Of a stretch of 64,000 nt of DNA, positions 14,675-42,950 are shown in pieces. The notes beneath the pieces were generated by a model that saw only the letters and a program-made list of their open reading frames with translations, was not told the origin of the DNA and ran no database searches. This DNA comes from Arthrobacter sp. B1805 (lineage in GTDB: Bacteria > Actinomycetota > Actinomycetes > Actinomycetales > Micrococcaceae), in assembly GCF_002929745.1 (NCBI RefSeq), contig NZ_PJIQ01000002.1:1-64000 (forward strand), given 5' to 3'. How positions within the stretch are numbered: the first letter of the stretch is position 1; each line of letters opens with the position of its first letter. A program made the translations under genes and the position numbers.

Positions 14675-15958
14675 CTACTGTCCAGCGCGGAAGAACGCCG
14701 TCGTGGCCGTCGCGAGGTGGCCGGGGTCCTCCACGCCGCAGAGCTCGCGGGCCGAGTGCATCGACAGGAGCGGCGTCCCGACGTCGACCGTCCGGATGCC
14801 GAGCCGGGTGGCGGTCAGCGGCCCGATGGTCGACCCGCAGGGCATCACGTTGTTCGACACGAACTCCTGGTACGGCACGCCGGCGGCCCGGCACAGTGCA
14901 GCCCAGTAGGCGGCGCCCGGCGCATCCGTGGTGTACCGCTGGTTCGCGTTGATCTTCAGCAGTGGTCCCTGGTTCAGCACAGGCAGGTTGACGGGGTCGT
15001 GCCGCTCGGCGTAGTTCGGGTGTACCGCGTGTCCTGCGTCCGCCGAGACACAGAACGAGGACGCCAGGGCACGCAGGCGCTCCTCGGTCCCTGCGCCGAG
15101 ACCCAGGGCGATCCGCAGGAGCATGTCTTCGAGGAACGGGCCACTTGCTCCGGAACGCGAGCCGCTGCCCACCTCCTCGTGGTCGAATGCCGCGAGGACT
15201 GAGATCGGCCCGTCCGAAGGGCCGGTCGACGCCGTATCGATGAGCGCCGTGAGCCCGGCGTGCACCGAGGAGAGGTTGTCGAGCCGCCCGGACGCGAAGA
15301 ACTCACCCCGGGCGCCGAAGACCCGAGGCTCCTGCGTGTCGGCGACGACCACGTCGAATCCGCCGATGTCCTCAGCACGGACACCTGCGCTTCCGGCCAG
15401 CATCCCGAGGAGATCGGCGTCTGCCGGCTCTCCCAACCCCCAGACAGGATTCAGGTGTCGCTGCTTGTCCAACGCCAGGCCGTCGTTCACCGCACGATCC
15501 AGGTGGATGGCCAGTTGTGGGAATCGCAGCAACGGCCCGGTGGCCACGAGGTGTTCGCTTCCGTCGTGCAACGTGAGCCGGCCGGCGAGCGCGAGCTCGC
15601 GGTCCAACCAGGAGTTCAGCAACGGCCCGCCGTACACCTCGACACCGGCCTGCAGCCATCCGTACTTGCCCGTGGTCGGTTTGGGCTTGAGTTTGAACGA
15701 CGGGGAATCCGTGTGGGCACCCAGGATGTGGAAAGCCGTGGTGGCACCAGCGCTCTCGGGAACCACCCAGGCGATGAGCGCACCGTCCCGGATGGCGTAG
15801 AAGGACCCGGTCGAGGCGTCCCAGGCGTCCCGCTCCTCGAGCCGACGGAACCCGGCGGCGGCAAGGCGCCGGCCTGCTTCCGCCACGGCATGGAAACTCG
15901 ACGGTGACGCGGTGACATAGGCCGCGAGGTCCTGGATGTGCGCTGTGGATGGACTCAT
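14675..15958 (-). CDS. M18-family aminopeptidase
   Basis: A 427-residue zinc aminopeptidase of the M18 family (aspartyl aminopeptidase type, ApeB in some annotations). Metal-site motifs are visible: GAHTDSPSFKLKP near 80, FDHEEVGSGSRSGA near 290, SADAGHAVHPNY near 340 and a C-terminal MHSARELCG. It removes N-terminal acidic or neutral residues from peptides in the cytosol. The ATG at 15958 is preferred; the in-frame extension to 16132 is basic and unlike the family. It lies just downstream of rpsF without an obvious terminator between, on the same strand. Confidence 0.9.
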   Translation of the reverse strand: MSPSTAHIQDLAAYVTASPSSFHAVAEAGRRLAAAGFRRLEERDAWDASTGSFYAIRDGALIAWVVPESAGATTAFHILGAHTDSPSFKLKPKPTTGKYGWLQAGVEVYGGPLLNSWLDRELALAGRLTLHDGSEHLVATGPLLRFPQLAIHLDRAVNDGLALDKQRHLNPVWGLGEPADADLLGMLAGSAGVRAEDIGGFDVVVADTQEPRVFGARGEFFASGRLDNLSSVHAGLTALIDTASTGPSDGPISVLAAFDHEEVGSGSRSGASGPFLEDMLLRIALGLGAGTEERLRALASSFCVSADAGHAVHPNYAERHDPVNLPVLNQGPLLKINANQRYTTDAPGAAYWAALCRAAGVPYQEFVSNNVMPCGSTIGPLTATRLGIRTVDVGTPLLSMHSARELCGVEDPGHLATATTAFFRAGQ

Positions 15959-16098
15959 CCCCCGATTCAACCAGATGGTGGTCCGCAGCTCCGGAGGCGC
16001 CTCCGCCCGAGCAGCGGCCTCGGCCCCGTGTTCCCGTCTCCGGCGCGGTCTCATGTCCGGCACGGTATTTCTTCTCCTTCCCTTCGGTTTCCGCACGG

Positions 16099-16178
16099 TC
16101 TTCGGTTTTCTTTCGGCAAGGGTTCGCAGCATGCGCAGGTTCGGGTTTAGCTGCGCCTTCCAGAGTTGGTATCAGAAG
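16099..16178 (+). promoter_or_regulatory. Upstream element shared with the SipW-type peptidase gene
   Basis: CCAGAGT-N5-TCAGAAG at 16160-16178, preceded by TCTTCGGT-led T-rich sequence at 16099-16118. The same two elements occur at 40932-41000 before the signal peptidase gene, with all 14 defined bases identical in the first and 15 of 20 in the second. TATCAG at 16170 could be part of a -10 region. Confidence 0.5.
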
Positions 16179-16247
16179 CACCGGGATCCGAAGGAGACCG
16201 GAGAAGGCATACCAACCACCGCAGCACTCACGAAAAGGGTCAACCTC

Positions 16248-16901
16248 ATGGCACGCACCGCTCGCAGCTCACGAATCAACATGAAGTCCACGTCCGGTAA
16301 GGTCCTCGCCTCCGTCGCCCTCCTCGGTGTGGCTGCTTCGGTTGCGGGTCTCGGAACCTACGGTTCCTTCACGTCCACGACGTCCGCCAGTGAGACCGTC
16401 ACAGCCGGCTCCGTCAAGATCGAACTCGGCGCGACCGGCACCGCAGCCAACCGCCTCACGGTCCCCGCCGTCGGCGTCATCCCCGGCGACACCATTCAGC
16501 GCGCTGCCACCCTGTCGAACACCGGCAACCAGAACTTCGGCGGCGTCACTCTCAGCACCACTGCCGCGGCTCCCGCTTCCAAGCTCACCACCGACGGCAT
16601 CAACGGCCTGCAGGTCGCCGTCGACGCCTGCAGCGTGCCCTGGACCGAAGCCGGCACGGCGCCTGCCTACACCTACACCTGCGCCGGCACGATCACCAGT
16701 GTCCTGCCGACCCGCCCGATCATCGGGACCGATGTCGTGCTCTCCAACCTGGCGTCGATCACCAACCCCAACAGCAGCAAGGCCGACAACCTCCGGATCA
16801 CCGCCACTCTGCCCACCGCTGCGGACAACACCTTCCAGGGCCTGACCAGCACCGTCGACTTCGCCTTCACGGCTACCCAGCGCGCAGCAACCAGCCGCTA
16901 G
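16248..16901 (+). CDS. TasA/CalY-like secreted protein with SipW-type signal peptide
   Basis: A 217-residue exported protein. The N terminus (basic, then VLASVALLGVAASVAGLGTYGSFTS) is a SipW-dependent-type signal peptide, and the mature part shows the camelysin/TasA pattern of Thr/Asn/Ala-rich beta strands (SVKIEL, IPGDTIQRAATLSNTGN). Two Cys at about 125-145 could pair. The ATG at 16248 follows AAAAGGG. In Bacillus such proteins form biofilm fibres after SipW cleavage. The likely peptidase is encoded 25 kb away at 41110. A hairpin and a second exported protein follow. Confidence 0.82.
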   Translation: MARTARSSRINMKSTSGKVLASVALLGVAASVAGLGTYGSFTSTTSASETVTAGSVKIELGATGTAANRLTVPAVGVIPGDTIQRAATLSNTGNQNFGGVTLSTTAAAPASKLTTDGINGLQVAVDACSVPWTEAGTAPAYTYTCAGTITSVLPTRPIIGTDVVLSNLASITNPNSSKADNLRITATLPTAADNTFQGLTSTVDFAFTATQRAATSR

Positions 16902-26419: not shown

Positions 26420-27154
26420 TCAGGACCGGTTGTCGTTCGGCATCATGCGGTACCCCACGCCGCGTACCGTCCGGATGAAGCGGGGGTTGCTCATGTCCTC
26501 GCCGAGCTTCTTGCGCAGGTTGCGGATGTGCACCTCGACGAGGTGGTGGTCCTGGCTCCAGCCGTCCCCCCACACCCGATTGAGGAGCGCCTCCCGCGTC
26601 CAGACGCGCTGGGCGCCGGTCAGGAGTGTCTCGAGGAGGTCGAACTCGATGCGCGTCAGGGCGAGCTCCTGCCCGTGCAGCGTGACGACGCGGCCCTCGA
26701 CGTCCATCACGAGGTCGTTGTGGCGGAGCATCTCGTTGCCGGCGGGCTGCCCCTGCACAGCCGGGGCCGGGCCCGTGCGGGGACGGCGGAACATCGCCGA
26801 GACGCGCGCCGAGAGCTCGCGGGGGCTGAAGGGTTTACCGATGAAGTCGTCCGCGCCGGTCTCGAGCCCGATCAGGCGATCGATCTCGTCCTGCCGCGCG
26901 GTGACCATGACGATGTAGGCATCACTGATGGCTCTGCACTGACGGCATACCTCCACGCCATCGAGGTCCGGCAGATTGAGGTCGAGGGTGATCAGGTCCG
27001 GCTGGTGCTCCTTCAGCGCGGCCAGGCCGTCGTGCCCTGACGCGGCCTCGACGACGGCGAAGCCGTTCATGCGCAGGGTGGTGGCGAGCAGCTCACGGAT
27101 ATCCGGGTCGTCTTCGACGATCAGCGCAGTGCGCTGCGGCGCGGAAACGGACAT
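26420..27154 (-). CDS. OmpR/PhoB-type response regulator, orphan
   Basis: A 244-residue regulator: receiver domain with Asp58 (LITLDLNLPDLDG), Lys in GKPFSPRE, then a winged helix at about 145-240 (TRIEFDLLETLL, VEVHIRNLRKKLG, IRTVRGVGYRM). No histidine kinase gene is adjacent. It is closely similar to the regulator at 42150-42950, including an unusual ending with GYRM. AAGTCTTGCTTCATG shows no strong ribosome site. It is divergent from the hydrolase gene. Confidence 0.93.
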   Translation of the reverse strand: MSVSAPQRTALIVEDDPDIRELLATTLRMNGFAVVEAASGHDGLAALKEHQPDLITLDLNLPDLDGVEVCRQCRAISDAYIVMVTARQDEIDRLIGLETGADDFIGKPFSPRELSARVSAMFRRPRTGPAPAVQGQPAGNEMLRHNDLVMDVEGRVVTLHGQELALTRIEFDLLETLLTGAQRVWTREALLNRVWGDGWSQDHHLVEVHIRNLRKKLGEDMSNPRFIRTVRGVGYRMMPNDNRS

Positions 27155-41048: not shown

Positions 41049-41109
41049 TAGCTTCAGCCGGGCAGGAATCCGGTCGATCAGGAAACCAGCAGCAACAGAA
41101 GGAGCAGGC

Positions 41110-42180
41110 GTGAGCACGATCGACCTTTCGTCCATCGGTCCCGGGTTCCGAGCGAGCGCTCGCAACCGGCAGCAAACGGACGACGTGACGACGGCTACCA
41201 CGGCGACACCCGGGGCAGTGCGTGCGACTTCCGATCGCCCGTCCATCGCCCAGCGCATCACCAGCCTCCTGGGCACACTCCTCATGGTGCTCGCCATCGC
41301 GGCCGTCCTGTTCTTCGCGATCGGTCCGCGCTTCCTCGGCTACCAGACGGCGACGATGCTGACCGGCAGCATGGCCCCCGAGATCATGCCCGGTGATGTC
41401 GTCGTCACCACGGTGCAGCCGGTGAGTGACATCGCTGTGGGAGACGTCATCAGCTACCACATCCCCGTCGAGGACCACCGCGTCGAGACACACCGCGTGA
41501 TCGAGGTCATGAGGGGAACCGACGGCAGCACGGCCGTGCGCACCAAGGGCGACGCCAATCAGGCCGCCGACCCCTGGATCGCCACGCTCGAGGGGGACTA
41601 CGTCTACGAGGCAACGGCCACCATCCCCGAGGTCGGCAACGTGATCCGCGCCCTCCGTACGCCCGTCGTCCGCCAGGCCCTCGTGTACGGCGTGCCGGCC
41701 GTGCTCGTCGGCAGCCTGCTTCTCATGATCTGGTCACGCCCCAAGGAGGAGGACGACGACGCCTCGGTCGGCACGCCTGCCACGGTCGAGGACCGTCCCG
41801 GTTCACCCGTCATGCCCACGGCCGGCGGCACCGACGTCCCACTCCTCCCGGTCCTGGACCGGTCGGTCCTGCAGAACCTCGGCGTCGAACTCTCCAGCCA
41901 CGCCGGGGCGCTCCACTTCGCTGAGACGTTCGTCCAGCTGCTGCCGCAGCGCATCGCGGCTGTGGAGTCCGCGTTCAGGGCCGAGGACACTGATGCCGCC
42001 GTCGTCGCGCTGCTCAGCCTCAATGTGAGCGCGTCCATGGTCGGCGCCAGCCGGCTCGAGGAGTCGACGTCCGCAGCACTCCGCCTGATCGAGAATCCCT
42101 CGGCCCACCCCGGCCTCATTGCTCGGCTTCGCAGCCTCGGGGACGAATTTCAGTCGGCGCTCGGCGGGATCATGCGGTAG
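41110..42180 (+). CDS. SipW-type signal peptidase I with degenerate Hpt-like C-terminal domain
   Basis: A 356-residue protein. Membrane helices are at about 50-72 and 188-208. The S26B (SipW/SEC11) catalytic region lies between, with Ser87 (GSM), His128 (HRV) and Asp148 (KGDAN). After a linker (210-245), residues about 249-352 look like an Hpt four-helix domain (LDRSVLQNLGVEL, HFAETFVQLLPQRI, AEDTDAAVVALLSL, VGASRLEE). The usual phosphoacceptor His is Leu302 and the Lys is Asn305, so phosphotransfer is unlikely. The start is GTG after AAGGAG. The 3' end overlaps the response regulator gene by 31 bases. Likely processes the TasA-like protein. Confidence 0.8.
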   Translation: MSTIDLSSIGPGFRASARNRQQTDDVTTATTATPGAVRATSDRPSIAQRITSLLGTLLMVLAIAAVLFFAIGPRFLGYQTATMLTGSMAPEIMPGDVVVTTVQPVSDIAVGDVISYHIPVEDHRVETHRVIEVMRGTDGSTAVRTKGDANQAADPWIATLEGDYVYEATATIPEVGNVIRALRTPVVRQALVYGVPAVLVGSLLLMIWSRPKEEDDDASVGTPATVEDRPGSPVMPTAGGTDVPLLPVLDRSVLQNLGVELSSHAGALHFAETFVQLLPQRIAAVESAFRAEDTDAAVVALLSLNVSASMVGASRLEESTSAALRLIENPSAHPGLIARLRSLGDEFQSALGGIMR

Positions 42181-42950
42181 CCGACACCGCGTACGGTTCG
42201 GATGAAGCGCGGGGCCTTGGTATCCTCGCCCAGCTTCTTCCGCAGGTTGCGGATGTGCACCTCGACCAGATGCTGGTCATTGACCCACCCGTCGCCCCAG
42301 ATGCGCGACAGCAGCGTCTCCCGCTGCCAGACCCGCCGCGGCCCCGAGACGAGGGTTGCCAGGAGGTCGAACTCGATGCGTGTGAGCGGCAGTTCCACAC
42401 CCTCGAGCATGGCGATCCGCCCTTCCGTGTCGATGCTGATCGGTCCGTGCAGCAGCGATCCCTCGACCTGCTCGTCCCGGGGGGCGACCAGCGTGCTCCC
42501 CGTCGCAGGCTGCGTCACCTCGGTCTCCTCACCGGTCCCCAGGAGGGGCTGCGACACGTTCCGCACGGTGCTCCTCGGGCGCCTGAACATCGCGTTGACC
42601 CGTGCACCGACCTCACGCGGGCTGAAGGGCTTCACCACGAAGTCGTCGGCTCCGATCTCCAGGCCGATCAGGCGGTCGATCTCGTCCTGACGTGCAGTGA
42701 TCATGATGACGTACGCGTCCGTGAGCGGTCGGATCTGACGGCACACCTCGACGCCGTCGATGTCGGGGAGATTGAGATCGAGGGTCACGAGGTCGGGCTG
42801 GCGGTCGCGCACGAGTGCGACACCTTGCCGCCCGGTCTCGGCCTCGAGGGTGGTGAAGCCGTTCATGCCCAGAGTCATGACCAGCAGCTGCCGCACGTCG
42901 GCATCATCTTCGATGACGAGGGCAACACGCGAATCGGGGTCGGAAGTCAT
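42150..42950 (-). CDS. OmpR/PhoB-type response regulator, orphan
   Basis: A 266-residue regulator: receiver with Asp58 (LVTLDLNLPDIDG), Lys in VKPFSPRE, a long linker (about 125-165) and a winged helix to the end (TRIEFDLLATLV, VEVHIRNLRKKLG, TVRGVGYRM). It has no adjacent kinase and is a close paralogue of the 26420-27154 regulator. Its 3' end overlaps that of the signal peptidase gene, so the two are convergent. The upstream region has a direct repeat ATCAGCACTG at 42990 and 43040. Confidence 0.93.
   Translation of the reverse strand: MTSDPDSRVALVIEDDADVRQLLVMTLGMNGFTTLEAETGRQGVALVRDRQPDLVTLDLNLPDIDGVEVCRQIRPLTDAYVIMITARQDEIDRLIGLEIGADDFVVKPFSPREVGARVNAMFRRPRSTVRNVSQPLLGTGEETEVTQPATGSTLVAPRDEQVEGSLLHGPISIDTEGRIAMLEGVELPLTRIEFDLLATLVSGPRRVWQRETLLSRIWGDGWVNDQHLVEVHIRNLRKKLGEDTKAPRFIRTVRGVGYRMIPPSAD

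Follow-up and report, generated by a model that had tools for sequence, protein, structure and literature searches.

The open reading frame that spans the locus of interest in the window (here, the entire 64,000-nucleotide stretch of Arthrobacter sp. B1805 DNA that was analyzed) is a single frame with a GTG start codon and an AGGAG sequence at 41,100-41,104, and encodes a SipW-type signal peptidase that continues into a C-terminal Hpt-like tail (Table 1). Hydropathy analysis delineates two hydrophobic spans, residues 45-78 and 186-209; the profile peaks again, less strongly, at residues 296-314, which correspond to the tail helix that carries Leu302. Given that the peptidase half has two spans, the tail is expected to lie on the cytosolic side of the membrane. 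The Ser, His and Asp motifs of signal peptidases were used as a membership criterion, and all three catalytic residues (Ser87, His128 and Asp148) are present in the peptidase half, in agreement with the preliminary description, which had recognized a SipW-type enzyme with an intact catalytic set. Residues 58-199 match TIGR02228 (SipW/ER-type signal peptidase I) with 64.7 bits, above the cut-off of 51.85; the score with Pfam S26 is below the cut-off (20 vs 22.9 bits), and the Bacillus SipW equivalog model, NF046067, yields 61.9 bits vs a cut-off of 190.

Table 1. Features of the fused gene, its convergent neighbor and the likely substrate gene (window coordinates)
Feature	Coordinates	Strand	Details and basis
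SipW-type signal peptidase-pseudo-Hpt fusion	41110..42180	+	356 aa; ORF, TIGR02228, orthologues
Peptidase part, residues 45-209	41242..41736	+	hydropathy, motif positions; invariant in 6-row alignment
Linker, residues 210-245	41737..41844	+	acidic, variable; 6-row alignment
Predicted pseudo-Hpt domain, residues 246-356	41845..42177	+	family profile, AlphaFold2 model, structure comparison
OmpR-type response regulator	42150..42950	-	Response_reg 92.3 bits, Trans_reg_C 89.8 bits; conserved pair
Likely substrate, camelysin/TasA-like, SipW-type signal	16248..16901	+	217 aa from internal Met of ORF 15936-16901

An assembly artefact can be ruled out for the fusion, which is present in 12 genomes of the Arthrobacter group, one of which (G023) consists of a single contig. 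This count includes the genome of the window itself (hence 11 further orthologues) and strain H5 (G028), which was counted as fused and has a scaffold gap inside the gene; the named relatives are Arthrobacter echini, Arthrobacter sp. and a Micrococcaceae MAG. The genome of the window has one more SipW-like match (L194; G000:C54:150000-166000), which is distinct, with 33% identity, and adjoins its own SipW-type signal proteins.

The preliminary description had taken the tail for a degenerate Hpt-like domain, a reading that is borne out by both profile search and structure comparison. The window protein scores below the gathering cut-off of PF01627 (16.1 bits for the whole protein and 19.2 for the tail; cut-off, 24.6), and several relatives (L204, L209, L220 and L254) exceed it. 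We gathered 108 related Hpt-like ORFs from 116 loci (L039-L058, L107-L200, L035 and L036, with shorter duplicates of the same places dropped); the window gene itself is outside this count, so that the aligned family has 109 members, of which 77 have a Pfam Hpt match with E<=0.01 (6.2e-9 for the best) and 32 lack one. In a search of the PDB with the family profile, a solved Hpt, HptB (7c1i), came first, with E=1.3e-9, followed by 3myf (0.0023), ArcB (0.0065) and then weaker matches, and the phosphoacceptor His of HptB falls on the Leu column of the family.

The full-length fusion protein yielded a model too poor to use (pLDDT 51), and residues 242-356, modeled with AlphaFold2 together with five relatives, formed five helices with pLDDT 86.4 and pTM 0.75 (the structure alignments leave out L037, which contains an internal run of N, and L038, which is unrelated). 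The nearest solved structures are Hpts, namely, 7c1i (Z 13.7; 2.7 A over 99 residues) and 3myf (Z 13.3). Because helical bundles can reach Z of about 13 by chance, unrelated helical receptors in that list score up to Z 12.3, and the best Foldseek E-value is only 0.014, it is the sequence profile that carries the weight in the fold assignment. The family profile, the model and the structure comparison, taken together, rule out a chance similarity, and the tail is best described as a predicted Hpt fold without its defining residue, that is, a pseudo-Hpt.

The loss of the phosphoacceptor can be read directly: as the preliminary description had stated, its position is occupied by Leu302 (42,013-42,015), and the Lys position, three residues further, by Asn305 (42,022-42,024). 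Among the 108 family members, the phosphoacceptor column contains Leu in 86, Val in 4, His, Gln and Ala in 3 each, and other residues in 9, and the +3 column varies, with Lys in 16. Of the 69 members that are linked to a response regulator (RR), 68 have Leu, Val or Met in the phosphoacceptor column, vs 24 with a hydrophobic residue among the 39 others (Fisher p=3.5e-7, for rows that are not independent). The three His-bearing ORFs (L109, L111 and L124), none of which is RR-linked, group nearest to His-less ORFs in a weak tree of 170 rows, built from 83 columns. In this tree, the His label requires only 2 changes, a history weakly consistent with one loss and one regain.

Hpts are phosphorylated on His, and, with Leu in place of this residue and Asn in place of Lys, no phosphotransfer is expected. 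Unconventional phosphotransfer via another residue of the tail appears highly improbable: two Asp columns are common in the family (89 and 79 of the 108 members) and His does occur in place in those three ORFs, but the family alignment contains no further column rich in His or Cys, and the near-invariance of the hydrophobic residue in RR-linked members argues against it as well.

The gene downstream of the fusion encodes an OmpR-type regulator and is convergent with it, such that the 3' ends overlap by 31 bp. Around the 108 Hpt-like ORFs, the RR gene is convergent in 67 cases, tandem in 2 and divergent in none, with 39 ORFs lacking an RR in the available flanks; 66 of the 67 convergent RRs have a winged-helix match (OmpR-type) and one is a lone receiver (L178). 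The L178 gene itself is a GT2-Hpt fusion beside a kinase; its interpretation as a kinase-Hpt fusion was ruled out (overlapping frame). In 62 of the 67 pairs, the genes are at most 100 bp apart, and in 25 they overlap. In 14 of the 67, the overlap has precisely the length that it has in the window (31 bp; 42,150-42,180). The catalytic residues, namely, the Asp pair, the phospho-Asp and the Lys (DD, D and K), are intact in all 69 neighboring RRs of the relatives. In the genome of the window, which encodes 13 winged-helix regulators and four Hpt-like genes, three of the latter (in the window, on C27 and on C54) are convergent with a winged-helix regulator; for the fourth (C49:151069), the sole winged-helix regulator on the contig is 119 kb away.

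The distances among Hpts and among their RRs are correlated (r=0.88 over the 67 pairs, the two tandem pairs being left out), with agreement on the nearest paralogue in 1380 of 1487 comparisons; for the 39 within-genome paralogue pairs, r is only 0.46. The correlation points to co-inheritance of the Hpt/RR pairs rather than to contact; the 67 convergent pairs are not independent, and a pairing can be passed down without contact.

The preliminary description had named two regulators as potential partners of the tail, at 42,150 and at 26,420. The second of these was rejected because no Hpt-like match adjoins it, the fusion itself being the sole Hpt-like match in the window. The first is likely to be the docking partner, given that the two genes overlap tail-to-tail and that they stay paired across genomes whether or not the peptidase is fused. 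GGDEF/EAL-like ORFs (L042-L056 and L195) were detected within 3 kb of 11 of the 67 convergent pairs, several of them adjoining the orthologous RR; none was seen beside the regulator in the ORF list of the window.

A kinase-like ORF lies within 3 kb of 40 of the 67 convergent pairs vs none of the 39 ORFs without an RR, and in five of these kinase-like ORFs, HisKA and HATPase were confirmed. The association brings to mind a competitor role, whereby the pseudo-Hpt would keep the phosphate of a histidine kinase (or of its receiver) from reaching the RR, as plant AHP6 does according to an excerpt of PMC7402358. For the protein in the window, such a role seems unlikely: no true Hpt to compete with was found within the window, no kinase was seen beside the pair in the window ORF list, and the best candidate is unlinked. 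This candidate kinase for the orphan regulator (G000:C75:52982-54490) is 38% identical to the kinase that adjoins the orthologous RR in strain H5.

The likely substrate of the peptidase is a camelysin/TasA-like protein, which matches PF12389 with 30.9 bits (cut-off, 22.5) and TIGR04088 with 22 bits when the genome was searched, or 17.2 bits when the long ORF was used (cut-off, 19). In the window, its gene is located 25 kb from the fused peptidase; in other genomes, it adjoins SipW. Among 57 genomes, a SipW of the window type was identified in 15 (at least 250 bits, with the next match at 65), and the camelysin/TasA-like gene is present in the same 15, with two short fragments in G027 in addition. 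This co-occurrence is a direct observation, and the fused SipW is likely dedicated to the camelysin/TasA-like protein.

Eleven of the 15 SipW genomes carry the fusion (the G028 copy being the one interrupted by the scaffold gap), and the twelfth fused gene comes from a MAG (L035). In the remaining four (G003, G018, G025 and G032), an unfused SipW adjoins the substrate gene. A separate tail gene faces the same RR in eight genomes (G003, G006, G009, G012, G025, G027, G032 and G033), three of which retain a separate SipW elsewhere; in G032, an apparent remnant of the second SipW span precedes the separate tail gene. In G018, the RR is kept with no Hpt-like gene beside it, and the separate SipW shares 4 bp with a different Hpt-like gene.

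Thus, the peptidase half tracks the substrate, and the tail tracks the regulator, persisting where the fused peptidase half is gone. The peptidase apparently can do without the tail because it is unfused in these four genomes and several loci elsewhere have no downstream gene; conversely, the occurrence of the tail as a separate gene in eight genomes suggests that its role with the RR is independent of SipW. In a tree of 28 RRs, the fused forms branch first among 21 close relatives, with the standalone forms nested among them and 5 changes required; 8 of the 25 inner branches of this tree are weak, and UBA4005 is a long branch. With this limit, the tree disfavors many recent independent fusions within the genus, and the simplest account is a single fusion, after which the peptidase half was repeatedly lost wherever its substrate had disappeared or been relocated.

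The split forms also bear on a structural reading of the tail, namely, that it is a cap or dimer-maker for SipW and that the gene pairing is historical or comes from overlapping transcripts. The recurrent 31-bp overlap of the 3' ends could indeed be kept for RNA reasons, but the domain is retained beside the RR where SipW is absent and, as described below, also occurs as part of an unrelated enzyme whose gene lies next to that of a lone receiver, which makes a purely structural role improbable.

Beyond the Arthrobacter group, we surveyed loci of the wider family, leaving out duplicates (L210 and L219) and places seen earlier (L201-L203). For the 21 top-scoring SipW loci that were retrieved from the family's other genera, the substrate gene is located upstream in all 21 cases, and a pseudo-Hpt gene lies just downstream of SipW in 15; one of the other six ends at a contig end. 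A convergent RR is found in the available flank at 7 of these 15 loci. Because the substrate gene is always upstream and the pseudo-Hpt gene is downstream in 15 of the 21, the module is substrate-SipW-pseudo-Hpt, often opposite an RR, and the window gene represents its fused form. In another family, a second SipW-pseudo-Hpt fusion was detected (G169; Hpt 32.7 bits, above the cut-off), and G100 contains consecutive SipW, Hpt and kinase genes. Altogether, the SipW-pseudo-Hpt association, as a fusion or as same-strand neighbors, recurs in several genera and in three families.

A different export enzyme carries the same domain in five genomes of the order, where one gene encodes a fusion of a GT2 glycosyltransferase and a pseudo-Hpt (L252-L255 and L267) and a kinase-like ORF lies next to it. 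Pfam identifies GT2 in all five and Hpt, at E<=0.01, in four. Stand-alone receivers (125, 139, 137 and 130 aa) face four of these genes, and the L252 receiver sits in a longer, unclear ORF. Given that the GT2-pseudo-Hpt genes face stand-alone receivers, the partner shared by the pseudo-Hpts appears to be the receiver domain itself.

At larger phylogenetic distances, a sample of 198 genomes of the order yielded Hpt-like matches in 29 (E<=1e-4), and a sample of 296 genomes of the class yielded them in 23 (E<=1e-8), the weakest of which include ordinary His-bearing Hpts; the class survey leaves out L287 and L293, which belong to the window's own genome and had been seen earlier. Within the class, genus g135 has five pseudo-Hpts opposite OmpR-type RRs, and one of the five also adjoins SipW. 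Two of the g135 genomes additionally encode a true, His-bearing solo Hpt (L291 and L292) that is likewise convergent with an OmpR-type RR. Three more His-bearing solo Hpt-like frames (L277-L279) face weak receiver matches (E 1e-8 to 1e-11), and in G229 (L215), a pseudo-Hpt ends a 601-aa frame without a Pfam match and faces an OmpR-type regulator. On the evidence of these comparisons, the window protein is not unique but represents one form of a pseudo-Hpt/receiver module that is patchily distributed across the class.

The mechanism that we consider probable is that the phosphotransfer-dead tail of the SipW export peptidase docks the receiver of the convergent regulator, tying export to gene expression. 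The membrane signal peptidase would process the camelysin/TasA-like exported protein, and its cytosolic tail, which would take no phosphate at the usual place, would offer the receiver domain of the convergently encoded regulator a place to dock. Such docking, with no transfer of phosphate, would keep the regulator at the export site or, alternatively, would allow the phosphorylation state of the regulator to alter the peptidase activity; in either case, export of the surface or matrix protein would be coupled to gene expression. That docking is physical and which way control runs are both inferred here. Control of the enzyme by the receiver is favored because the receivers of the GT2 forms have no DNA-binding output; the reverse, with the regulator held at the membrane, is also allowed because the SipW forms pair with an OmpR-type regulator.

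A one-directional version of the latter scheme, in which the tail does nothing but bind and titrate the OmpR-type regulator and the peptidase is a mere, uncontrolled membrane anchor, is a possibility to be taken seriously, if a somewhat doubtful one. It would explain the standalone tails beside the same RR in the eight genomes that lack the fused SipW half (with SipW kept elsewhere in three), and it is in line with the DNA-binding output of the partner encoded at 42,150; yet, the recurrence of the SipW-pseudo-Hpt link across genera and families exceeds what would be expected of an arbitrary anchor, and a lone receiver, such as the partner of the GT2 form, offers no DNA-binding output to titrate.

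Extending the docking model to the entire family, we tentatively suggest, as a conceivable scenario, that phosphotransfer-dead Hpts are receiver-docking adaptors that place membrane export enzymes (SipW and GT2) under direct post-translational two-component control, and that the family had a single origin, in true Hpts whose genes converged with those of OmpR-type regulators, and was carried patchily through the Actinomycetes as tail-to-tail pairs. Response regulators are usually held to act on DNA or second messengers. If the scenario is correct, a dead Hpt on a protease or a polysaccharide synthase, beside a receiver gene, would constitute a direct two-component wire to secretion.

The preliminary description had known of no comparable protein, and the open-licence literature agrees, in part among the matches listed, with the amendment that the protein belongs to a wider module. 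In this literature, SipW together with an Hpt domain was not found in full texts, nor was the combination of a signal peptidase, an Hpt and an RR; there was nothing related on SipW in Arthrobacter, and a search for SipW and camelysin in Actinobacteria returned only an Anoxybacillus genome. Among the matches listed, pseudo- or degenerate Hpts were the subject of plant papers only, nothing relevant connected a glycosyltransferase with an Hpt, and no Hpt without His was bacterial, although a bacterial pseudo-Hpt may be described in a paper outside those listed or beyond the open-licence literature. One candidate precedent, PMC11481889, was rejected because, in the excerpt, it describes a kinase without His. 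Thus, the parts are of known kinds, and the combination and the receiver-paired family appear to be undescribed.

With the known Hpt domains (PF01627; HptB 7c1i, 3myf, ArcB and BarA being the nearest), the tail appears to share the fold and the residues around the phosphoacceptor and differs in having Leu for His and Asn for Lys. Plant AHP6, an Hpt protein without His, is a negative regulator according to the excerpt of PMC7402358 and illustrates that loss of His does not preclude a regulatory role for an Hpt; AHP6, however, belongs to cytokinin signaling in plants, whereas the domain described here resides on membrane export enzymes and has one receiver as its gene partner. Predicted plant transmembrane HPts resemble the fusion in placing an Hpt domain at the membrane but belong to the plant multistep phosphorelay, and the excerpt of PMC12785465 that describes them mentions no peptidase.

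Another close parallel is B. subtilis SipW, for which Terra 2012 is reportedly the original paper on the second role in biofilms. In the excerpt of PMC4238804, this second role concerns surface-adhered biofilms. B. subtilis SipW resembles the system in the window in that a dedicated SipW-type peptidase is associated with a TasA-family substrate and that, beyond cleavage, the enzyme has a second role in the biofilm (PMC4238804 and PMC4551309, both in excerpt). The window protein differs in falling short of the Bacillus SipW model, as noted above, and its second function would belong to the Hpt-like domain, whose gene partner is an OmpR-type regulator. If this is the case, the fusion would provide a molecular model for the second biofilm function of SipW, one that is genetically separable because both fused and split versions occur in nature.
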